A stretch of 64,000 nucleotides of DNA, from positions 1 to 64,000 of the forward strand of contig NZ_CP060245.1 of assembly GCF_014252455.1 (NCBI RefSeq), in the 5' to 3' direction. Source of the DNA: Blattabacterium cuenoti. Lineage in GTDB: Bacteria; Bacteroidota; Bacteroidia; Flavobacteriales; Blattabacteriaceae. Under the pieces are notes generated by a model. That model saw only the letters and a program-made list of their open reading frames with translations, ran no database searches and was not told the origin of the DNA. Made by a program: the position numbers and the translations under genes. This document shows positions 8,902 through 57,252 of the stretch, piece by piece. Each line of letters starts with the position of its first letter. Within the stretch, counting starts at the first letter, position 1.

Positions 8902-10556
8902 TTATTTTTTTATATATAATCGATAGATTATAGTATAAATGGAAATTATTATAATAATAAAAAAATTAATCTTAAAAAGATAGTCTCCATTTTTAATATA
9001 AAAAGTTTTTTTTCTATTAATACTTATTTTTTTAAATAAAACTCCATCTCTTCCATAAGGAAGAGATGAAATTATTTCTCCTTTTTCATTTATAAAACAA
9101 GATACACCTGTATTAGCTGATCTAGCTATAGATTTCCTATTTTCTATAGCTCTAATTCTAGCATAAGATAAATGTTGTTTATATCCTTGTGTTTCCCCCC
9201 ACCATCCATCATTTGTAATAATTATCATAAATTCTGCATTAGTATTTTTAAAAAATTTAGAAACATATTCTCCAAAAACTGATTCATAACAAATAATAGG
9301 TGCCACTTGAATACCTAAATCAGGATGTTTAAATATAGAAGGAAAATCTTCTTTTCTATGTTCCATTATCGTACCTCCAAAATTTAAAATAACATCTCCT
9401 AATATAGGAAAAAGAATTTTTTTATATGGAAAAGTTTCTACAGCTGGAACTAATTTTGATTTATGATGTATTTCAATTTTTTTATATGATGAACTTATTT
9501 GAATAATAGAATTAAATATATCTAACCATAATATTTTTTTATTTTTTTTAAAAAAATTGGAGTTGAAGTTTGACTTTTCTTTTGAGATAAAGAATATAAT
9601 TCTATTCCTGTAATAAATACAGTTTTTGGATGTTTTTTTAAAAAATTTCTAAAAATTAAAATTAATTTATTTTGATTAATATTAAATATTGGAATTTTAT
9701 GACCATATCCTGGAAATAACGTTTCAGGAGCTATAATAAAAGTTTTTTCTATAAAAAATTTTTTTTTATTTATTAATTTTTTTAATTTTAAGATTAATTT
9801 TTTTGTAGATATTTTATATTTTTGATGATATGGATCAATATTTGGTTGTAAAATTAAAACATTTACAGTATCTTTTTTATTTTCTTCATATTTTATATAT
9901 ATATAATTAGAAATAAAAATTAAAAAAAATATTTTTCCTATATTAATAATAATATTTTTATATAAAAAAAATTTATTATTATTTTTTTTATATTCTAGGA
10001 TTCCATTCATTAAACTAATATTAACACTCCATATCCATATAGTTCCTCCTAAAGTACCCGTATATTCATACCATTGAATCCATTTTGGATAATTAGAAAA
10101 TCCATTCCCTAAATTTAACCAAGGCCAAGATAATTCCCAGTTTAAATGTAATTTTTCAAATGTAACCCATAACCCTATTAAAAATAGGTATCCTATTTTT
10201 TTATTTTCTACATATTTTTTTATATATGAATAACATAAAAAAACAATAGACATCAAAAAAGAATTTATTAATACAGGAAATAAATAGGATTCTATAGAAT
10301 AACTTCCATTAGGTCTTTGAGTATAAGATAACCACCATGTAGAACTCCCATTCCATATAAAAAAAGTCAAAAAAGATAATAAAAAAACATAAAAAAAAGA
10401 ATAATTAATATAATTTTCTATATATAATAATGGAATAAAAGCTATAAATAAATAAATAGGATTTCCATAAGTAGGCCATCCTAATATTAATAAAATTCCT
10501 GAAAGAATACTATAAAAAAAATATGATAAGGTTGATGTAGATATAAACTTTAATTT
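8902..10556 (-). pseudogene. lnt: apolipoprotein N-acyltransferase, frameshifted and without a standard start codon
   Basis: Lnt adds the third acyl chain to lipoproteins in the inner membrane. Two frames must be joined. The N-terminal part (about 10556-9522) has the membrane segments, GWPTYGNP, and the triad Glu in APETLFPGYG. The C-terminal part (about 9531-8902) has the triad Lys in HKSKLVP and Cys in IICYES. The frames meet at a T7 run on the + strand (9534-9540); one missing A in the coding strand explains the shift. Lnt similarity reaches upstream to about 10540, but no ATG, GTG or TTG lies in that frame before TTG 10370, which is inside the conserved region. If both defects are real, only transcript slippage and an unusual start could yield a working enzyme. 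Confidence 0.85.
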
Positions 10557-10566
10557 TTAAAAAAAA

Positions 10567-10959
10567 TGGAGCTGGCGGGATTTGAACCCGCGTCCAAACA
10601 AGTATAATAAAGGGTTCTACATATTTATCTAAAGTTTATTTTTTCAATATATCTAAAGCTTTAGATCTAAAAATATATCTTAGATTCTTAATAAAATAAA
10701 AAAACTTTAGAATCATCCATTTTTTTATCCTTATATTATTAGTACCTCTATATCAGAAATTATAAGGAAAAACCACTGAGAGGTATTTTGCTTCTGAAAT
10801 TTACAGATAAAGCTTTAATGATTCTTCATTAAGCAGCAAAAGCGTATTTTGTTTCGCCATTTATGATATTTGTAACGATTGATTTACGTGAAATACCTTA
10901 CGTAACACGATATGCTGACCTTTATAAATAATCTTGCTGTCAAATCCAAAATCAGCCCC
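10567..10959 (-). ncRNA. ssrA: tmRNA (SsrA)
   Basis: Transfer-messenger RNA that rescues stalled ribosomes. The 5' end GGGGCTGATTTTGGATTTGA (from 10959) pairs with the 3' acceptor and T-arm (GGGTTCAAATCCCGCCAGCTCC). The 3' CCA is encoded at 10569-10567. The tag frame starts at GGC (10858) and ends at TAA (10829), encoding GETKYAFAA, which matches the Bacteroidota tag style ending in AA. The length is about 393 nt. A TAAATTTG promoter element lies 10 bp upstream. Confidence 0.95.
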
Positions 10960-11002: not shown

Positions 11003-12226
11003 TTATATTAAATTAGTTTGATTAGAAATATCTAATCTAATAAAAATAAATACTAAAATAGTAAAAGACCAAAAAGATGATCCTCCATAACTAAAAAAAG
11101 GTAAAACAATTCCGATTGTTGGAAATAAACCCATAACCATACCTAAATTAATCAAAAAATGAATTAAAAGAATATTTCCTACTGAATATCCAAAAATTCT
11201 TACAAAAATATCTCTTTGTCTTTCAGATAAAAAATAGATTCTACTAATAAATAATAAATAAAATATAATTAAACCTATACTTCCTATAAAACCCCATTCT
11301 TCTCCTACAGTACAAAAAATATAATCCGTATGTTGTTCAGGAACAAATTTCCCTTTTGTTATAGTCCCTTTTTTATATCCTTTTCCAAAAAATTTACCAG
11401 ATCCAAGTGCAGTTTTAGAATAAAGTAGATTATAACCTACATTTTCTCTATATTTTCTATCAAATTCATTCTTAAAAAGAATATTAATTCGATCTTTATG
11501 ATGTTTTTTTAAACATTTTTGATAAAAAAATGGAGAAATAAAAACAAAAAAAGAAAAAAAAATAAAGTAAAAAATATAATAAAATAAATTATTTTTTTTG
11601 ATTAGAAATAATAATAAAAAAATAAAGAATAAAGCTAATATAATTATCCAAAATGAAAAATTTAAAGATAGTATAAATAAAAAAATAAAAATCAATATAT
11701 AAAATAAAAAAAATATTGATAAACCTTCTCTATACAAAGTCAAAATAAAAGAAAAAAAAACAATAGAAGACCCTGGATCTGGTTGAAAAAATATTAAAAT
11801 AAAAGGAGTAAATAATATAATAAATATATAAAATAATATTTTTTTATTTTTTTTAAAATTTTCTTGACTCATTATATGAGCTAGAATCAAAGATGTAGAT
11901 ATTTTAGATAATTCTGAAGGTTGAAAACTAATAGGACCAAAAATATACCAAGATTTTGATCCATTAATATTTTTCCCAAAAAAAAACACTCCAATTAAAA
12001 GGAATAATGTAAATAAAAAAAAGAATGGAGAAAAATATTTATAATGTATTGGTTGAAATAAAAAAACTAAAATTATACAAATAAAACTAAATATAATCCA
12101 TATTAATTGTTTTTCTGCTTTTTCTGATGAAACAGAATATAAATTCATATATCCAAAAAAAATTATAAAAATATATATTAATACAATATACCAATCAATA
12201 TTCCTTAATAAGGTTTTATTTCTCAA
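11003..12226 (-). CDS. rodA: rod shape-determining protein RodA (SEDS peptidoglycan glycosyltransferase)
   Basis: Polytopic inner-membrane glycosyltransferase of the elongasome, working with PBP2. The 407 residues are strongly hydrophobic, with about ten membrane segments. SEDS features include GSKSWYIFGPISFQPSELSK near residue 90, a long polar loop with EQHTDYIFCTVGEEWGF near 305, and the C-terminal FPTIGIVLPFFSYGGSS. It starts at ATG 12226, 9 bp after the mrdA stop, and is the last protein gene of the mreB-mreC-mreD-mrdA-rodA cluster. RodA is preferred over FtsW because of this context. Confidence 0.95.
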   Translation of the reverse strand: MRNKTLLRNIDWYIVLIYIFIIFFGYMNLYSVSSEKAEKQLIWIIFSFICIILVFLFQPIHYKYFSPFFFLFTLFLLIGVFFFGKNINGSKSWYIFGPISFQPSELSKISTSLILAHIMSQENFKKNKKILFYIFIILFTPFILIFFQPDPGSSIVFFSFILTLYREGLSIFFLFYILIFIFLFILSLNFSFWIIILALFFIFLLLFLIKKNNLFYYIFYFIFFSFFVFISPFFYQKCLKKHHKDRINILFKNEFDRKYRENVGYNLLYSKTALGSGKFFGKGYKKGTITKGKFVPEQHTDYIFCTVGEEWGFIGSIGLIIFYLLFISRIYFLSERQRDIFVRIFGYSVGNILLIHFLINLGMVMGLFPTIGIVLPFFSYGGSSFWSFTILVFIFIRLDISNQTNLI

Positions 12227-12235
12227 AAGAATTAT

Positions 12236-14104
12236 TTATTTATATCCTTTCATTATTGCTATAGAATCATAAACTTTTTGTAATCCAGAAGTTAAAATTC
12301 TATTTTCTAAATTTGTTCTTAGTACATTATTTTTGATATATTTTTCCGCAATTAAACTAGCTATAGGACCTGCCCAACGAGATCCAAATCCTCCATTTTC
12401 TATAATAACAGAAATAGCTATTTTAGGATCCTCTACTGGTGCAAATAAAATAAATATAGAATGATCTGGAAGAGAAATTACTCTATTTTTAATTTTAATA
12501 AAATTTTGAGCAGTTCCTGTTTTTCCTGCCATTCTAATATCAGATGATTTAAAACTTTTTCCTGTTCCAATTATAAAAACTTTTTCCATTCCATTAATAA
12601 TAAAATTAAAATATTTACTTTTAACTTTAGTATATTTAGCTAAAGTATAATTAGAATTATAAATTGGTTTATGATTAATACATTTTACAATATGAGGAGT
12701 ATAAAAATAACCTTTATTTGCTATAGCACAAACCATATTAGCTAATTGAATAGGAGTTACATTAATTTCTCCTTGTCCAATACTATTGGAAATAATAGTT
12801 AACGCATTCCATTTAGTATCTCCATATTTTTTATTATAATAATCTCCAGAAGGAATAACTCCTTTTTCTCCAGTAGCTAAATCATTATATAAATAATTTC
12901 CAAATCCAAAACTTTTAATAATTTCGCTCCATTCATTAACTCCTTTAGTTAAATTTTTTGGATATTTTTCTATTACACGTTTATAAACTTGTGCAAAATA
13001 ATTATTGCAAGATACAGCTACTGCTGTTTCTATTCCTATAGGAAATCCATGAAATCCTGAATGACATTGAATTCTTTTTTTTCCTTGTTTAAATCCCTTA
13101 TAACAAATAAAAGTCGTTTTTGTGTCTACTACACCCATTTGAAGACCAGCTAATTCTGTTAATAATTTAAAAGGAGAAGCTGGAGGATAACGTGCCTGTG
13201 TCGTTCTATCAAATAATGGATAATCTATCGTATTTTTAATTAATTTTTTAATTTTTTTATAACGATTTATTCCTACAAAATAATTAGGATTATTTATAGG
13301 ACTAGAGACTAAAGATAAAATTTCTCCATTTTTAGGATTGATAGCAACAATACCTCCTTTCTTTTGATACATTAATTGTTCAGCATAATTTTGTAAATTC
13401 CAATCAATAGTTAAAGAAATATCATTTCCAATAATAGCTTTTATATTATTTTTTTTATTATTATAACTCCCAATAATACACCCATTTCTATCTTTGACCC
13501 AATATTTAATTCCTTTTTTTCCTCTTAATATTTTTTCATAAGATTTTTCTACTCCAGCCCAACCGATAAAATCTCCTCTTTGATAATAAGAAGATTCTTT
13601 TTTAATGTCTTTCATACTGACTTCTCCAAGATAACCTAAAATATTAGCGGAACTTTCTACTTTATAATCCCTTAAAGAACGTTTTGTCCAATCAAATCCT
13701 TTATATTTATACAGTTTTTCTTGAATAGAAGCAAATTTTTCTTTAGAAATAAAAGGAAGAAAAATAGAAGGTAAATATTTTGAATAAGATTTTGCTTTTT
13801 CTAAATTTTTATAAAAAATATTTTTTTCAATTCCTAATAAATTACAAAATTCTATAATATTCATATTATCATCAAGAAGAATAGGAATAACACTTAATTC
13901 ATAAATAAATTTATTAAAAACTAATAAATTATTTTTTCTATCAAAAATAGACCCTCTCTCAGGAATAATAATTTCTTGTTTTATAGAAGTATTAAAAGCA
14001 TTTAAAATATATTTTTCTGTATATATTTGAATATAATATAATCTAATAATAAAAATTACACCTATAAAACTTAATAAAATATAAAATATGTATAATTTTT
14101 TCAA
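12236..14104 (-). CDS. mrdA: penicillin-binding protein 2 (peptidoglycan transpeptidase)
   Basis: Cross-links peptidoglycan during cell elongation as the partner of RodA. The 622 residues have one N-terminal membrane segment (about 4-22), a dimerisation domain beginning with IIPERGSIFDR, and a transpeptidase domain. The three active-site motifs are SPFK (near 310), SCN (near 366) and KTGT (near 526). The start is TTG at 14104-14102, overlapping the mreD stop as TTGA; no ATG fits better. The family's normal length is kept. Confidence 0.95.
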   Translation of the reverse strand: MKKLYIFYILLSFIGVIFIIRLYYIQIYTEKYILNAFNTSIKQEIIIPERGSIFDRKNNLLVFNKFIYELSVIPILLDDNMNIIEFCNLLGIEKNIFYKNLEKAKSYSKYLPSIFLPFISKEKFASIQEKLYKYKGFDWTKRSLRDYKVESSANILGYLGEVSMKDIKKESSYYQRGDFIGWAGVEKSYEKILRGKKGIKYWVKDRNGCIIGSYNNKKNNIKAIIGNDISLTIDWNLQNYAEQLMYQKKGGIVAINPKNGEILSLVSSPINNPNYFVGINRYKKIKKLIKNTIDYPLFDRTTQARYPPASPFKLLTELAGLQMGVVDTKTTFICYKGFKQGKKRIQCHSGFHGFPIGIETAVAVSCNNYFAQVYKRVIEKYPKNLTKGVNEWSEIIKSFGFGNYLYNDLATGEKGVIPSGDYYNKKYGDTKWNALTIISNSIGQGEINVTPIQLANMVCAIANKGYFYTPHIVKCINHKPIYNSNYTLAKYTKVKSKYFNFIINGMEKVFIIGTGKSFKSSDIRMAGKTGTAQNFIKIKNRVISLPDHSIFILFAPVEDPKIAISVIIENGGFGSRWAGPIASLIAEKYIKNNVLRTNLENRILTSGLQKVYDSIAIMKGYK

Positions 14105-14612
14105 CGTTTAATTTTTCTAAAAAAAAAATAAATATTACATAAAATAGTTGTAAAAATACTGCACAATATAGTTCTTAATAAAAAAATTTTTTGAAATTGA
14201 TGAACTTGTAATGTTTCTAAAATAAATAAAAAAAAATGATGAATAAAAACTAAAGAAAATATATAAAAAATTTTTCTAATAAAAGGTAATTGATAAATAG
14301 AAAAATCACTTTGAATTTTAAAATTATTTCCATCAAAAAATTTTAAAAAATTTAATCTTAAGTAAGCTGAAAAAGTAATAGAAAAAGCATGTATTCCTCC
14401 TGTATTCATACAATTATCAATAATCAAACCTAAAAAAAATGATAACACTAAAAATATAAATTTATTGCCACGATATGGATAAATTAAAATAAAAAGTATA
14501 TATATATATATATATACCATCCTAAAAAAATAGGATAAAAAATAGGATTTAATGCTGATATTTGAATGATAAAAATAAAAAAAATAAAAAAAAAATTTCT
14601 AAAAAAATTCAT
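14101..14612 (-). CDS. mreD: rod shape-determining protein MreD, frameshifted at a (TA)10 repeat
   Basis: Small membrane protein of the elongasome. The true start is probably ATG 14612-14610, which overlaps the mreC stop as TAATG. From there one frame encodes MNFFRNFFFIFFIF...NPIFYPIFLGWYIYI, a first membrane segment that fits flavobacterial MreD, but it runs into a stop just after a (TA)10 tract (14516-14497). The adjacent frame continues the protein (ILFILIYPYRGN, then GLIIDNCMNTGGIHAFS) to the stop at 14101. Removing one TA unit, or adding one base in an upstream T run, joins them into about 170 residues, the family's size. Starting at ATG 14520 would lose the first segment. The last bases overlap the mrdA TTG. 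Confidence 0.8.
14497..14516. repeat. (TA)10 dinucleotide repeat within mreD
   Basis: Ten uninterrupted TA units in coding DNA at the point where the two mreD frames meet. Nine units would keep the gene in frame. Confidence 0.9.
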
Positions 14613-15445
14613 TATTGACGTTCAACTTTATAAAGTTGAATATGATCCCACTCTTTTTTAAATAAATTTTTCACAACATAAGCATTTTCTATAGTAGAAA
14701 AATTTGTAAATAATTTCACCTTTATTATATAATTTGCATGTTCTTCATCCCATTTATAAGAAAAAACTTTTCCAATTAATATCCCTTCAGGAAAAGTTGC
14801 CGATTTTCCATCTGTTTCTACTAAATCTCCTTTATAAAAAATAGAATGTCTAGATATATCATATAAAATTACATATTCAGGGTCTAACCCATCCCAACTA
14901 ACTGTTCCAAAATATTTATTTTTTTTTAATCTAGCATTTACTTTAATTTTTGGATTTAAAAGAGAAATAGCTATACTAAAATGTGGAGATGTTTTTGTAA
15001 TAATACCAGCAATTCCATCAGATAATATCAAACCCATATCAGTTTTAATTCCATCTAAACTTCCTTTATTTATAGTTATATAATTTTCTCTTTGATGTAT
15101 ACTATTATTAATAATTTTAACAGGAGTAAAAATATATTGTTGTAAATAATTTATATTTTCTTCTTGAAAATCTTTAGTAGATTTGATTAATTTAGAATGT
15201 CTATTTTCAGAAAGTAATTTTTTATTTTCATAAATTAACTTTTTATTTTCAATATCTAATAAAAAATAATGACGAAATTGATAAATATTTTGATATATAT
15301 TTCCAATTAACCAATTAGATGATCCAGTATAAATATATTTTTGAAGATTATTATTAGAAAAAGAAAGAAAAATAGCAAAAGATTCTAATAAAAAAAATAA
15401 AATAAAAAAACGCCATTTGAAAAAAAAATAAAAAAAATTACGCAT
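14612..15445 (-). CDS. mreC: rod shape-determining protein MreC
   Basis: Periplasmic elongasome scaffold linking MreB to PBP2 and RodA. The 277 residues have an N-terminal membrane anchor (about 8-27), a coiled-coil stretch (about 55-90, rich in Lys, Glu, Asn and Leu), and the beta-barrel core with NKGSLDGIKTDMGLI and GTVSWDGLDPEYV. It starts at ATG 15445, 20 bp after mreB, and its TAA shares a base with the mreD ATG. A perfect 20-bp palindrome lies in the last codons. Confidence 0.94.
   Translation of the reverse strand: MRNFFYFFFKWRFFILFFLLESFAIFLSFSNNNLQKYIYTGSSNWLIGNIYQNIYQFRHYFLLDIENKKLIYENKKLLSENRHSKLIKSTKDFQEENINYLQQYIFTPVKIINNSIHQRENYITINKGSLDGIKTDMGLILSDGIAGIITKTSPHFSIAISLLNPKIKVNARLKKNKYFGTVSWDGLDPEYVILYDISRHSIFYKGDLVETDGKSATFPEGILIGKVFSYKWDEEHANYIIKVKLFTNFSTIENAYVVKNLFKKEWDHIQLYKVERQ
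14621..14640. repeat. perfect 20-bp palindrome at the mreC 3' end
   Basis: TTCAACTTTATAAAGTTGAA is its own reverse complement. It encodes QLYKVE near the MreC C-terminus, just upstream of the mreC/mreD junction. It could form a hairpin in the transcript or be chance in AT-rich DNA. Confidence 0.8.
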
Positions 15446-15465
15446 ATTAAAATTAATTATATCCC

Positions 15466-16503
15466 CTATTTCATTAAAAATGTAAATTTATCAATATTCT
15501 GCAATGCTACTCCTGTTCCTTTTACTACTGCCCTTAAAGGATCTTCTACTAAAGTAACAGATAAACCAGTTTTTTTAGAAATACGTTTATCTAATCCTCT
15601 TAAAAGAGACCCTCCACCAGCCATATAAATACCAGTTTTGTAGATATCTGCAGCTAATTCTGGTGGTGTTCTAGATAGTGTTTCCATTACGGCATCTTCA
15701 ATACGTAAAATTGATTTATCTAAAGCAGGAATTGTTTCTTTATAAGAAATATTCATTTCTTTAGGTTTCCCAGTTGGTAGATCTCGCCCTTGTATATGAA
15801 TATCAACTGGTGGGTTTTCAATAAATTCCATCGCTGCACCAATATCTATTTTAATTTTTTCTGCAGTTCTTTCTCCTATATATAAATTATATTTAGACCT
15901 TAAAAAATAAGAAATATCATTAGTAAAAACATCTCCGGCTATTTTAATAGATTTTTGACAAACAATACCGCCTAAAGCTATTACTCCGCATTCTGTTGTC
16001 CCTCCCCCAATATCAATAATCATATTCCCTTCTGCTTTAGTAACGGAGATCCCAGATCCTATAGCTGCAGCCATTGGTTCTTCAATTAAATAAACTTCTT
16101 TTGCATTTAAATGTTGTGCAGAATCTTTAACTGCTCTTTTTTCTACTTCTGTAATTCCAGATGGAATACATATTACCATAGTTAAAGATGGAGTAAAAAA
16201 TTTTTTATTTATTCCTGGAATTTTTTTAATAAATTCTCTGATCATGAGTTCAGCTACTTGATAATCTGCAATTACTCCATCTTTTAATGGTTTATATATT
16301 TTAATATTCTCATGTGTTTTTCCTTGCATTTGTTTAGCTTCTTCTCCTACAGCTAATACTTTTTTAGTTCTTATATCTATGGCAATTATTGAAGGTAAAT
16401 CTACAATAACTTTATTTTTATACATAATAAGAGTATTAGCTGTTCCTAAATCTATAGCTATTTCTTGAGTAAAAAGATTCTTCATAAATTCAACGAATCC
16501 CAT
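15466..16503 (-). CDS. mreB: rod shape-determining protein MreB (actin homologue)
   Basis: Filament-forming ATPase that positions the elongation machinery beneath the inner membrane. The 345 residues carry the actin-fold signatures: phosphate-1 IDLGTANTLI (near 17), phosphate-2 MIIDIGGGTTECGVI (near 163), and the adenosine motif MAGGGSLLRGLD (near 295). It starts at ATG 16503 and is first in the mreBCD-mrdA-rodA cluster. Retention of the full cluster implies rod-type wall growth in this symbiont. Confidence 0.97.
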   Translation of the reverse strand: MGFVEFMKNLFTQEIAIDLGTANTLIMYKNKVIVDLPSIIAIDIRTKKVLAVGEEAKQMQGKTHENIKIYKPLKDGVIADYQVAELMIREFIKKIPGINKKFFTPSLTMVICIPSGITEVEKRAVKDSAQHLNAKEVYLIEEPMAAAIGSGISVTKAEGNMIIDIGGGTTECGVIALGGIVCQKSIKIAGDVFTNDISYFLRSKYNLYIGERTAEKIKIDIGAAMEFIENPPVDIHIQGRDLPTGKPKEMNISYKETIPALDKSILRIEDAVMETLSRTPPELAADIYKTGIYMAGGGSLLRGLDKRISKKTGLSVTLVEDPLRAVVKGTGVALQNIDKFTFLMK

Positions 16504-16585
16504 GAATATTTTTTTTATTCAATTTAAAAATATTTTTCTAAACCTTAAAAATATTCTATATTTTTAAAAAAAAAATTTTACTTAT

Positions 16586-17095
16586 TTGAAACAACATAAT
16601 GTTTTTTTATTATTAGGAAGTAATAAAACAAATAGAAAAAAATATTTAAATAAATCTTTAATTTTAATTTCTAAAATAATAGGTAAAATAATTAAAAAAT
16701 CTTCAGTTTTTAAAACTTCTCCATGGAATATGAAAAAAAATACGCCTTATTTTTATAATATAGTATTGCATATAGAAACTTTTTATTCTCCTATGGAAGT
16801 TTTAAAAAAAATTTTTAAAATAGAATTTATAATAAGTAAAAAAATATCCAATAAAAATTTTAAAAAAAATAAAGAATATAAAAATAGAAAAATTGATATA
16901 GATATTTTATTTTATGATCATATTATTATTTATAGTTCTATTTTAATTATTCCTCATCCTTTTTTACATTTTAGAAGATTTGTTTTAGAACCAATGTGTG
17001 AAATTATGCCTAATAAATATCATCCTGTATTTCATATAACTATATTAGAACTATTAGGAGTTTGTATAGATAAATTAAAAGTAAAAAAAATATAA
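16586..17095 (+). CDS. folK: 2-amino-4-hydroxy-6-hydroxymethyldihydropteridine diphosphokinase (HPPK)
   Basis: Transfers pyrophosphate from ATP to hydroxymethyldihydropterin in folate synthesis. The 169 residues start with FLLLGSNKTNRKKYL and contain FKTSPW, PYFYNIVLHIET, the catalytic RKIDIDILFYD, and HPFLHFRRFVLEP. The start is TTG at 16586; the nearby ATG is out of frame. It is divergent from mreB across an 82-bp gap. No other folate gene lies in the window. Confidence 0.92.
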   Translation: MKQHNVFLLLGSNKTNRKKYLNKSLILISKIIGKIIKKSSVFKTSPWNMKKNTPYFYNIVLHIETFYSPMEVLKKIFKIEFIISKKISNKNFKKNKEYKNRKIDIDILFYDHIIIYSSILIIPHPFLHFRRFVLEPMCEIMPNKYHPVFHITILELLGVCIDKLKVKKI

Positions 17096-22262: not shown

Positions 22263-23005
22263 TTGAGATTTTTTATTGAATTAGCTTATAATGGAAAATA
22301 TTATCATGGATGGCAAATACAAAAAGGAAATAGTTCTTCTGTAGAAGAAAAATTAGAATATTGTTTATCTAAATTATTAAAAACATCTATAAATGTAGTA
22401 GGAGCAGGAAGAACAGATACTGGTGTTCATGCTAAACAAATGTTTGCTCATTTTGATTTTGAACAACAAATTAATAAAAATTTAATACATAAATTAAATA
22501 TTTTTTTACCAAATTCCATTCATGTCTTAAATATTTTTCCCGTTAAAAAACATATTCATGCTCGATTTCATGCAATTAAACGTATTTATAAATATTATTT
22601 AACATGTGAAAAAAATCCATTTTTTCAAGATTTTTCTTGGTTTTGTTATTATCCATTAGATATTAAAAAAATGACTCAAGCTTCTAAATTTTTAACAAAA
22701 TATAAAGATTTTAGTTTTTTTTGTAAAAAAAAAAATAAAACTAATAATAATATATGTACAATATATTATGTCAATTGGTTTAAATATAATAATTATCTTT
22801 GTTTTACTATTGAAGCTAATAGATTTTTAAGATCTATGGTAAGATCTATTATAGGATCATTAATTGATGTAGGGAGAAAAAAATCAGTATCAATCAATTT
22901 ATAAAAATTTTAGAATTTAAAAATAAGGACTATGTTAGTCCAATAGCCCCTTCTTTTGGTTTATTTTTAACAAAAATTATTTATTCAGAAGACATTTTTT
23001 TATGA
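22263..23005 (+). CDS. truA: tRNA pseudouridine(38-40) synthase TruA, one-base frameshift near the 3' end
   Basis: Makes pseudouridine at positions 38-40 of the tRNA anticodon arm. The catalytic Asp lies in GAGRTDTGVHA, and RFLRSMVRSIIGSLIDVG follows. The first frame stops at 22904 with an odd tail. The next frame carries the missing TruA C-terminus: INQFIKILEFKNKDYVSP, then IAPSFGLFLTKIIY. The switch falls in an A7 run (22877-22883); one more A restores DVGRKKISINQF. The restored stop (23003-23005) overlaps the next gene's ATG as ATGA, which strongly supports this reading. The start is TTG 22263, since no ATG is available. Confidence 0.9.
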
Positions 23006-33084: not shown

Positions 33085-33591
33085 ATGATTTTAAGATATC
33101 ATACAGATGAAATAGACAATACTATTGTAAAAAAACTGAATTTAAATGCTAGAATTCCATATACTGAAATTAGTAAACAAATCAGTAAAGAAATTAAACC
33201 ATTATCGGTTGGGACTGTTCATGTAAGAGTTAAAAAATTAGAAGAATATGGAATTATAAAAGGAAGTACCTTAATTATTGGTTATGAATCATTAGGTTTT
33301 CATTTAATTGCTTTTGTAGGAATATTATCTGATTCACGTGAATCTCAATTAGTAAAAGAAGAATTAAAAAAAATTCCAAATATTGTACAATTATATATTA
33401 CTTCCGGGAAGTATAATCTTTTTTGTAGAATTATTGCTAAAGATCCTTCAGATGCTAGAAATGTCATATCTAGAATAGGAAAAATAAAAGGAGTGTTAAG
33501 AACAGAATCTACTATTTGTTTAGAAGAAAGTATTAATGATGAAAATAGATTACTTTCTAATATTTTAAAAAAACACACATCTACTTCTTAA
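33085..33591 (+). CDS. Lrp/AsnC family transcriptional regulator
   Basis: DNA-binding regulator of the leucine-responsive/AsnC family. The 168 residues have an N-terminal winged helix-turn-helix (about 8-62, DEIDNTIVKKLNLNARIPYTEI) and a C-terminal RAM ligand-sensing domain (about 70-150) with VQLYITSGKYNLFCRIIAKD. Both domains are complete. It is the only dedicated DNA-binding regulator recognised in this window. Its targets and effector, possibly an amino acid, cannot be read from the sequence. Confidence 0.92.
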   Translation: MILRYHTDEIDNTIVKKLNLNARIPYTEISKQISKEIKPLSVGTVHVRVKKLEEYGIIKGSTLIIGYESLGFHLIAFVGILSDSRESQLVKEELKKIPNIVQLYITSGKYNLFCRIIAKDPSDARNVISRIGKIKGVLRTESTICLEESINDENRLLSNILKKHTSTS

Positions 33592-33734
33592 AGTAGAAAA
33601 AATATTATTATGAGATAATTATCTCTTTAAATTCAACTATTTTTAAATCATTTTATCCTTTCAAAAAAATTGTCTAGTTTCAATTTTTTATTGGAATGGT
33701 CAAATTTTATACATATAAAAATATGTATATATAA

Positions 33735-35197
33735 GATTTTAGTTTTAATTATTACTATCTTATTCTTAACTATTTTTTTCCTAAAAAATATATTTTTAAA
33801 TATAAATTTTATAAGGAAAAAATTTGGTTTTATATAGATCTATTTTTTCCATTTGATTTTATTTTTTTAAAAAAAAATTAATCTATTTTATTAGATAAAA
33901 TAAAATTTAAAAAAAATATGAAAATAAAATATGGAATAAAAAAAAATTATGGTTTAATTTTATGATATTTAATAATATTAAGTATTATCTTTTTTTTCTT
34001 GAATAAGATATTTAAAAATCATAAAAAAATTAATTTTTTAATAATTAATATATTATTAATTTCATTAATTACGATAATTATTTTAAATTATCATTATAAA
34101 ATATTATATTTAATTCCTTATTGTGTCCTTCCTATAAGTTAAGTATTCGTGCTTTTTTTAATTTTCATTTAAGTTTTATTATATATATTATTATTATTTT
34201 ATTGCTATCATGTATTATTCCTAATAATTTTGAATTTATTATTATTCAAATTGTTACAGGTTTTTTAGTTTTATTAATTAATAAAAATATTTATAAAATG
34301 TCTAGTTTATTATTTATTTCTTTAATTAAAATTCCTGTAATTTATACAATTACTTTTTGCTCTATTACTTTAATATTTAAAGGATCATTAGAAAATATTT
34401 CTTTATATAATTTTTATTTATTTTTTTTAAATGGGATATTAACTTTATTTATTCACCCATTAATTTTTATTTTTGAAAAATTATTTAATATTACTTCAGA
34501 TATTTCTTTATTAGAACTATCTGATCCAAATACTCCTATATTAAGATTATTATCAAAAAAAGCTCCAGGAACTTTACAACATGTTTTAACTGTATCTAAT
34601 ATGGCGGAGGAAGCAGCAATTTCTATTGGAGCAAATTCTTTATTAGTTAGAATAGGGGCTATTTATCATGATATAGGAAAAATTAAAAATTCTATTTTTT
34701 TTATAGAAAATCAACATAATTTATTTAATCCTCATGAAAATATTAGTCCTAAAGAAAGTGCTAAAATTATTTTAGAACATGTTTCTATTGGTGTTCAATT
34801 AGCAAAAAAATATGATCTTCCTAATACTATTATGGATTTTATACGTACGCATCATGGAAATAGTCTTATTTATTATTTTTACAAAAAACAAAAAAAACAA
34901 TGTCCTAATATGAGAATAGATAAAAAATTTTTTAAATATTCTGGACCAAAACCTTTTTCTAAAGAAACTGCCATTGTAATGATATGTGATTCTGTAGAAG
35001 CAGCATCAAAAAGTATAAAAAATCCATCTCATACAAATTTAAAAAAATTAGTAGAAAAAATTATTAATAATAAAAAAAATGAAAATCAATTTTCTAATGC
35101 AAATATTACTTTAAAAGAAATAGAAAAAATTAAAAAAGTTCTTCAAAAAAAATTAATTACTCTTTATCATACTCCTAGTATTCAATGTCCTAAATAA
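33735..35197 (+). pseudogene. eroded 7TM HD-domain phosphohydrolase (PgpH-like), C-terminal half still open
   Basis: PgpH-type proteins are membrane HD phosphodiesterases of about 680 residues; c-di-AMP is the known substrate in Firmicutes. The 5' part is broken. Segment 33735-33898 encodes YFFPKKYIFKYKFYKEKIW and LFFPFDF, matching the family N-terminus. Most of the extracytoplasmic domain is deleted, and membrane segments lie in shifting frames to about 34130. From 34121 (TTG) a frame of 358 residues keeps membrane helices and the HD domain (LQHVLTVSNMAEEA, YHDIGK near 183, IRTHHG). The catalytic part may survive as a short protein, but no ATG starts it. Confidence 0.82.
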
Positions 35198-37762: not shown

Positions 37763-37790
37763 AAAAATATATAAAAAACATTAATATAAA

Positions 37791-38167
37791 TTGATTTTAA
37801 AAGCTAATATTAAAAATATTATTCCTATATTTTTTTTAGGTAGAACTTTAATATCTACTGGAGTATATATTAAATTTTATAAAAATTTTAGAAAAAATTT
37901 TATTATAAAAAATAAATTTATTTCTACTAAAACAATTTGTATTCTTCATATATCTAAAAAAAAATAATAATAAAAAAAAATTTTTTTTATAAAGAAATAA
38001 AAATTATTATTATTAATATTTCTTCTTTTAAAACTATTATCATTAAACCTAATGAAAAAATCGCTATAATGAATATTTATAAAGAAACTAAAATTAAATG
38101 GGATCCTTGTTGTATTTTAAATAAAAGTATAAGAAATCATAAAGGGTTTGGAAGTACAGGATTATAA
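37791..38167 (+). pseudogene. dut: dUTP diphosphatase remnant
   Basis: Two frames carry a decayed dUTPase. The first (37791 to a stop near 37967) reads ANIKNIIPIFFLGRTLISTG, then VYIKFYKNF and FISTKTICILH, matching the segment before and around the RPRSG motif, which is itself lost. The second frame reads IKIIIINISSFKTIIIKPNE, then KIAIMNIYKETKIKW and HKGFGSTGL, matching the C-terminus with the motif-5 tail GFGSTG. The stretch with the catalytic Asp (GTIDADYRGE type) is deleted. The position between a flippase and a nucleotidyltransferase matches dut in Flavobacteriia. Confidence 0.85.
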
Positions 38168-53026: not shown

Positions 53027-53044
53027 ATTTAAAAATAAAAAAAT

Positions 53045-54240
53045 ATGAAATCAATTTTTTCAATTTTTTTTTCTTTTTTCTTTTTTCTTTTTTATGCAAA
53101 TACAATATTTGCATATAATTATCAAAAAAGAACAATAAATTTTTTTTTAAAAAAAGAAACAATATCAAAAAATTATAATTTTTTAAAAAAAAAATTATAT
53201 AAAAAAAATTTAGGATTTCAATATATAATAAAGCCAATATCAAATCCTACTACAATTAATTTAATTTTTATGTTACCATTATTAATAAATAATGAAAAAA
53301 AATCAAAATATCAACAAAAAATAGAAAAAAACGCTTTATCTTTTTATCTTGGAGCTAAATATGCTAGTGATTTATTATCTAAAAAAAAAAAATAAATATT
53401 TTAGTTTTTGATACAAAAAATAAAATAAATAGAATAAAAAAATTTATACATACATATAATTTTAATAATATACATGCGATTATAGGTCCTTTTTTTCGTT
53501 CTTCTTTAGAAGTAGTAGCTAAACAAAAACCTAAGATTCCTATTATTTCTCCATTTGTAAATTCTGAAATATTAAATAATTATCCTAATGTTATTCAATC
53601 TGAAGTAAAAGATTTTTTTCTTATACAACCTATTTTAGAAAAAATAAAATTTTTTTCTAAAAAAGAAAAAATTAATACATTATATTTAATAGGTACGAAA
53701 AAATCGAAAAAAATAGTATTTAATATAAAAAAACAATTATTACAATGGAATGAAAATTTCCAAATTTTTTTTTTAAATAAAAATTTTCAATTATCTTCAT
53801 TAAAAAATACTCCATTTTTTTATGTTTTTTTAGGAGGAGATTATTTTTTGGGTAAAAATTTTATAAATTTTATAAAATTTTTTTCTACAAAAAAAATAAA
53901 AACTTTTGGAATAGGTTATAATGAAATTTATTATCAAAATATACCTTTATTAAAAAAATATAAATTTATTTTTACAACAAAATATCATTTTAATCAAAAA
54001 AAATCAAAAATATTTTCTCTTTTTAAAAAAAAATTTGGAAAAAATTTAAATAAATATCAATTATTAGGATTTGATTTAACTTATGATATTTTAGAAAGAC
54101 TTTTTAATAATATTGATTTATTTAAAAATATAGAAAAAAGGAATTTTATCGGTTTATTAAGTAAATATCATTATAAAAAAATTTATAATGAAGGGGGGTA
54201 TTTAAATACAGGAATATGGATTATTCGTTTTAATTTTTAA
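53045..54240 (+). pseudogene. periplasmic-binding-fold protein with LysM remnant, frameshifted at A12
   Basis: Resembles the flavobacterial LysM proteins with a type-1 periplasmic binding fold. The first frame (53045-53395) has a signal peptide, a shortened LysM-like stretch (KKETISKNYNFLKKKLYKKN) and FYLGAKYASDLLSKKKK. The next frame continues ILVFDTKNK, HAIIGPFFRSSLEVVAKQ, IPIISPF and so on to 54240. They meet at an A12 run (53381-53392), and one extra A would join them into about 400 residues. The ligand and role are unknown; a peptidoglycan link is only suggested by the LysM trace. Confidence 0.75.
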
Positions 54241-56062: not shown

Positions 56063-57252
56063 ATGAATTTACATGAATTTCAGGGGAGAGAAATATTAAA
56101 ATCCTTTTCTATTAAGGTTCCTGACGGAATCATAGCTACTACCCCAGAAGAAGCTGTTCAAGCTGGAAAAATTTTATTTAAAAAAACCCAAAAAAAATCC
56201 TTAATTATTAAAGCTCAAATACATGCAGGTGGTAGAGGAAAAAGTGGAGGAATAAAAATAGTTCAAACTTTAGAAGAAATATATAAAATATCAAAAAATC
56301 TTTTAGGAAGATATTTAATTACCCCACAAACTTCAAAAAAAGGAAAATTAGTTCGTAAAATTCTTATTTCTGAAGATGTTTATAATAATGATTATATAAA
56401 AAAAACAACCTTTTCTAATAAACCTAAAGAATATTATTTATCAATATTATTTAATCGTGATATTGAAAAAAATGTTATTTTATATTCTAAAGAAGGAGGT
56501 ATAGATATAGAAGAAATATCTAAAAAATATCCAAATAAAATATTTATAGAAGAAATAGATACAGGTTTAGGTTTACAATTATTTCAATCTAGAAAAATTG
56601 GATTAAATTTAGGAATAAAAAAAAATATCCATTCTTTTTTATTTTCTCTTTATCAAGCTTATTTATCTTGTGATACTTTATTATTAGAAATAAACCCATT
56701 AATTTATAATAAACTTAATGATCAATTTATAGCAGTAGATATAAAAATGATATTAGATGATAATGCTTTATTTCGTCATAAAAAATATGTTTATACTCCA
56801 TTAATAGATAAAAAAAAAATCAAGAAAAATTAAATTTTTTAAAATTAGAAGGAAATGTAGGATGCATGGTTAATGGAGCTGGATTAGCTATGGCTACAAT
56901 GGATATGATTAAATATAGTGGAGGTCATCCAGCTAATTTTTTAGATATTGGAGGAACAGCGAATAAAGAACGTGTAGAAAAAGCTTTTTATCTTATTTTT
57001 AATGATCCATCGGTAAAAACGATATTAATAAATATATTTGGAGGAATTGTTCGTTGTGATACAGTAGCAGAGGGAATTGTTAATTATTATCAGAAAATAA
57101 ATTCAATAAAAATTCCAATAATTGTTCGTTTACAAGGAACAAATGAGGATAGAGCAAAAAAAATACTTGAAAAAAGTAAATTACCAATTTATTATACTTA
57201 TACCTTAAAAGAAGCAGCGAATAAAATTAAAGAAATTTTATTAAATTCATAA
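56063..57252 (+). CDS. sucC: succinate--CoA ligase (ADP-forming) beta subunit, one-base frameshift at A10
   Basis: Couples succinyl-CoA cleavage to ATP formation together with SucD. The first frame (56063-56833) has [12 protein letters not shown], the ATP-grasp [15 protein letters not shown] and LEINPLIYN. The next frame (to 57252) has [20 protein letters not shown], then [14 protein letters not shown] and [10 protein letters not shown]. The switch lies at an A10 run (56810-56819); one more A gives [18 protein letters not shown], in line with the family. All catalytic segments are conserved in both parts, so the gene is probably expressed by slippage or the base is miscalled. The stop overlaps the dnaX ATG as TAATG. 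Confidence 0.9.

Follow-up and report, generated by a model that had tools for sequence, protein, structure and literature searches.

The mreD gene of this genome of Blattabacterium cuenoti, a cockroach endosymbiont, is broken by one repeat unit at a (TA)10 microsatellite, and the protein encoded beyond the break is conserved. We consider it rather probable that the tenth unit is a real slippage mutation of this lineage, and not a selected switch. Positions below refer to the window, by which we mean the whole stretch of 64,000 nucleotides that was analyzed, at the start of the contig.

In the window sequence and its list of open reading frames (ORFs), mreD consists of two minus-strand ORFs in different frames. 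The first (14484..14612) starts with an ATG, encodes the first hydrophobic segment and ends after 42 aa at the stop codon 14484-14486; the highest 19-residue Kyte-Doolittle mean within its first 34 residues is 2.25. The ATG shares bases with the stop codon of mreC in the sequence TAATG (14610-14614). The second ORF (14101..14520) comprises 139 aa counted from an internal ATG at 14518-14520. The two ORFs share 37 nt in the region of the TA tract, which occupies 14497..14516 on the minus strand and was recovered by Tandem Repeats Finder as a repeat of period 2 with 10.0 copies and 100% match. The initial annotation had described this anatomy correctly, with the TAATG junction and the first hydrophobic segment in one frame, the remainder in another, and ten TA units at the break.

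The surrounding genes are arranged on the minus strand in the order mreB-mreC-mreD-pbp2-rodA, which is shared with the MreBCD-PBP2-RodA elongation system. The gene for MreB (16503-15466) was recognized by its own sequence and by a match to a plasmid MreB; the best 5 of 9 records in the plasmid search with mreB were only distant relatives. Intact genes were found for MreC (14612..15445; matches to PF04085 and NF010532) and for PBP2 (pbp2/mrdA, 12236..14104; TIGR03423, 460.5 bits against a cut-off of 455), and rodA (12226-11003) was assigned by a family match. Among named genomes, a protein search with this MreC gave one locus, in Blattabacterium cuenoti strain EUPOLsin, in agreement with placement in Blattabacterium. 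The location between mreC and pbp2/rodA is the one expected of mreD and bears out the earlier assignment of the two ORFs, with a weak family match: the 139-aa piece aligns to positions 34-150 of the 154 positions of TIGR03426 with 24.5 bits (E 2.2e-5), under the cut-off of 34.85, and has no Pfam match. The intact MreD of a relative (L062) matched no model in the Pfam-type or NCBIfam-type library at E 0.1, and none of the solved structures matched the intact MreD of a relative. Unlike the known elongation system, the mreD frame is broken here after the first segment. Structured RNA families were absent from positions 12200-16600 in an Rfam search at the gathering threshold.

The position of the break follows from the agreement of both flanks with the relatives, each in its own frame, and from the spacing between them. 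By eye, the residues before the tract, ..IIQISALNPIFYPIFLGWY, agree in the frame of the start codon with QIS.LNP.F..G.Y of the relatives, and this agreement extends to ..FLGWY. The residues after the tract, ILFILIYPYRGNK.., agree by eye with the relatives in the other frame, beginning at ILFILIYPY. With (TA)9 in place of (TA)10 the gene is in frame, and the distance from the Tyr after Gly-Trp to the motif YPY becomes 14 residues, as in 27 of the 34 relatives in which the pattern could be parsed (14 of the 48 were unparsed). The earlier statement that nine units would be in frame thus holds, and the break corresponds to one unit within the TA run. Two other sites had been put forward, namely the T runs at 14571-14610 as an alternative location of the shift and a missing T upstream that would already restore the frame. 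Both are ruled out, since the first piece fits the relatives in the start-codon frame up to the tract; no missing upstream base was found. Among the T runs, the T10 within the initial codons of mreD (14586..14595, minus strand) is the longest at that place among the 50 genomes examined. It is located 69 bp upstream of (TA)10 within the gene, and the frame used downstream stays open beyond it, as far back as a TAG that precedes it, so that the run is a possible second slippage site and not the site of the break.

In all 48 other Blattabacterium genomes (the sample contains one genome per species) mreD is a single open frame of 166-179 aa, and it is also open in G053, from another genus of the same family, with 169 aa. 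The longest TA run near the mreD start has two units in 5 of these relatives, three in 10, four in 12, five in 15 and six in 6, and ten in the genome studied here. The initial annotation had the frame of mreD controlled by the (TA)10 tract. The break is indeed at the tract, but control in the sense of a switch is not upheld by relatives that without exception combine two to six units with an open frame; neither the long tract nor variation of the frame recurs among the 48 genomes. The tract site encodes a conserved Tyr-x-Tyr-Ile-Tyr-Ile/Val sequence, and near relatives contain interrupted versions of the TA stretch. The closeness of a Tyr-x-Tyr-Ile-Tyr-Ile site to TAT-ATA repeats in an AT-rich genome, together with the interrupted versions in relatives, suggests AT drift followed by slippage. 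In a tree of MreB, MreC and PBP2 the genome stands alone on its branch, with the closest tip 0.18 substitutions per site away.

A tract of this length is exceptional. From Markov models of orders 1 to 4, with parameters taken from the window, 0.0004-0.0025 occurrences of (TA)10 are expected per 608 kb, and the mreD tract is the sole place with at least eight TA units in this single-contig genome of 608,467 bp. Across the genus, 5 of 49 genomes contain any such tract. By our reading, the long TA tracts of G001, G041 and G009 are located in noncoding DNA or ahead of a start codon. The (TA)8 of G039 (L085 1501-1516; G039:C1:123412-123427) is inside a short open frame that resembles rnpA by eye only and seems broken at a long A-run.

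A second repeat is found 8 bp from the TA tract, where Tandem Repeats Finder detected a perfect, in-frame 12-bp tandem duplication (14525..14548, minus strand). Among the 50 genomes examined, a perfect tandem 12-mer close to the mreD start is present in this one alone. Ahead of the QIS motif there are 16 residues, compared to 20 in 38 of the 48 relatives, a difference of whole codons.

Downstream of the break, 45 of 48 near-invariant columns of MreD (at least 90% agreement among the 48 relatives) are retained. In a leave-one-out comparison, 11 of the 48 relatives retained a smaller share of such columns. The distance of the downstream protein beyond the expectation from MreB, MreC and PBP2 ranks 8 of 49 (+0.028, SD 0.028), one standard deviation up. 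Judged from these comparisons, constraint on downstream MreD is not gone, and slight relaxation is possible. Because the downstream protein remains conserved, the break would be young, polymorphic, leaky or an error of the consensus.

Frame breaks are not confined to mreD. A tblastn census with the proteins of G005 as queries (at least 100 aa, with 65% coverage needed, a setting that misses short shifts near an end) found pieces in two frames for 6 of 48 tested genes of the window; the census missed mreD, which was counted separately. The genes, named from NCBIfam matches of the G005 proteins, are lnt (8905-10608), truA (22263-23002), a decayed HDIG-domain gene (33567-35191), a dUTPase-like gene (37776-38164), a 383-aa homologue that received no family name (53042-54228) and sucC (56063-57240). 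Four of the six are broken at A-runs of 7 to 12, located at A7 in truA, at A10 in sucC, at an A7-A8 pair in lnt and at A12 in the 383-aa homologue. Thus, the window has many frame breaks at simple tracts, and no special switch has to be invoked for mreD. Across the matching region of nine relatives, 14 of 398 tested genes lie in two frames, a count that includes overlaps in divergent ends and maybe not only true shifts, as does the count for the present genome; tract-associated breaks are therefore frequent within the genus, or else in the assemblies that represent it. Homologues of L099:6811-9996 lie in two frames in G014, G006 and G040, and homologues of G005:C1:59933-60610 in G018, G040 and G025; each may be a recurrent slippage site.

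Other stretches of the genome, which leave out 380-460 kb, 500-608 kb and further parts and include 460-500 kb with 0 tested genes, gave 2 of 121 tested genes in two frames. One of these is a phosphopantetheinyl-transferase-like gene broken at A10. The other is a false break in valS at 41 N (G000:C1:198149-198189, in L116), with an exact 600-bp repeat on the flanks, which looks like unmerged overlapping ends and hence a fault of the assembly. In post hoc Fisher tests, the window differs from the other stretches (6/48 vs 2/121, p 0.0071) and from the relatives (6/48 vs 14/398, p 0.014). The first comparison becomes 7/49 vs 1/121 (p 0.0007) once mreD is counted and valS left out; this version favours slippage and was set aside.

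We hypothesize that point changes in a very AT-rich lineage turned the Tyr-x-Tyr-Ile-Tyr-Ile codons into an uninterrupted TA run, and that replication slippage then added one unit to give (TA)10, which would separate the remainder of MreD from its start codon and from the first segment in the membrane. A slippage mutation is consistent with the commonest length among relatives being restored by nine units, with the 12-bp duplication 8 bp away and with the slippage-like damage around it. The higher density of shifted genes in the window than elsewhere in the genome argues against it, being unlike the outcome of a uniform mutational process. A locally poor consensus is one possible cause of this density, and would favour an artefact. 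If the true tract has nine units, mreD is intact and the tenth stems from a miscall or from a minority allele; we regard such an error of consensus or assembly as the main rival and a serious possibility, of clearly lower probability than one half. Open mreD frames in all 48 relatives, the conservation of downstream MreD, the evident fault in valS and the clustering of shifted genes in the window (6/48 vs 2/121) are all in line with it, and an assembly with at least one fault may contain another in the tenth unit. Nonetheless, one read can easily cover a 20-bp tract whose flanks are unique, and relatives also have tract-associated breaks (the 14 of 398 genes), both of which weaken the case for an error. 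The accessible text of PMC9603385 contains no passage on the sequencing method, pseudogenes or mre.

The initial annotation proposed that variation in repeat number could turn mreD on and off within a population. We consider such a switch, kept by selection among the symbionts, very improbable. The anatomy permits such phase variation, since one repeat unit changes the frame as in contingency loci. However, the long tract is present in 1 of 49 genomes, mreD is open in all 48 relatives, and other genes of the window also break, at A-runs. With two to six units and an open frame in 48 of 48 relatives, there is no sign that a switchable tract has been selected. Loss of mismatch repair, which would raise slippage and is not a strict requirement for contingency loci, is not found either: the MutS_V and mutL matches of the genome fall within open frames (874 and 582 aa), and such a loss is rejected as the cause of the break. 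Moreover, MreD belongs to the core proteins of cell elongation and is not a variable product of the cell surface. A precedent is the switching of hifA/hifB in Haemophilus influenzae by (TA)9-11, which shares the repeat unit and nearly the length with the mreD tract (PMC2651432, in the passages available). In hifA/hifB, according to the same passages, the repeat affects promoter spacing, the products are surface fimbriae and variation is observed, whereas the mreD tract is in a coding frame of a core protein and no variation has been observed. We found no record of TA-length variation at mreD, and a literature search gave no match for Blattabacterium together with mreD.

A working split MreD, in which the 42-aa and 139-aa pieces are made separately and assemble in the membrane, the second by internal initiation or by coupled re-initiation in the 37-nt overlap, appears unlikely to us. 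It would make use of the in-frame ATG just ahead of the tract and of the overlap between the ORFs, and it would fit the conservation of the second piece. However, in those relatives with a GGATGG at this place its ATG is out of frame, so any use of the ATG here would be accidental, and none of the 48 relatives has a split mreD. Explanations of other kinds have very little probability in our judgment.

If the slippage mutation is real, residual MreD could be made by several routes. RNA polymerase might drop one UA unit; one U gained at T10 might give a full-length product with a different first segment; or the internal ATG at 14518-14520 might give a 139-aa MreD without the first segment. Such leakage is plausible by analogy, because about half of the two-nucleotide transcription deletions in E. 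coli occur in dinucleotide repeats (PMC5574713) and because 12-50% of transcripts at long poly(A) runs are frame-corrected in two endosymbionts according to a review (PMC5009743), as far as the available portions of both articles go. The same portion of PMC5574713 reports that no transcription errors restoring a frame were detected in E. coli and Buchnera data, and that short deletions in E. coli did not increase with repeat number, which speaks against efficient rescue.

The mreD break resembles the poly(A)-tract frameshifts of the insect endosymbionts Buchnera and Blochmannia in that a single tract indel affects a conserved gene of an AT-rich, reduced genome, and the gene is conserved beyond the break. 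Those frameshifts include cell-wall genes (PMC3017870 and PMC5009743, passages available), homopolymer frame breaks occur in eight genes of Blochmannia vafer (PMC3017870, likewise in part), and the frameshifts are possibly corrected by transcriptional slippage. They occur at A or T runs, in contrast to the TA dinucleotide run of mreD, at which correction is putative; with its break at (TA)10, mreD departs from the pattern of one frame break in a slippery run of A or T. We also entertain, as a doubtful idea, that the TA run is the dinucleotide equivalent of those poly(A) genes that slippage corrects, in which frequent unit changes by RNA polymerase, or by replication in the symbiont population of the host, would keep a mixture of full-length and truncated MreD and the tract would set a low level of elongation.

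If the mutation is real, TA runs that AT drift creates from codons like TAT-ATA would be able to break symbiont genes as A-runs do, and mreD would offer a concrete place for asking whether dinucleotide runs are tolerated via slippage. The case also calls for caution in AT-rich symbionts, in which core genes may seem disrupted at a single tract although their protein is still conserved.
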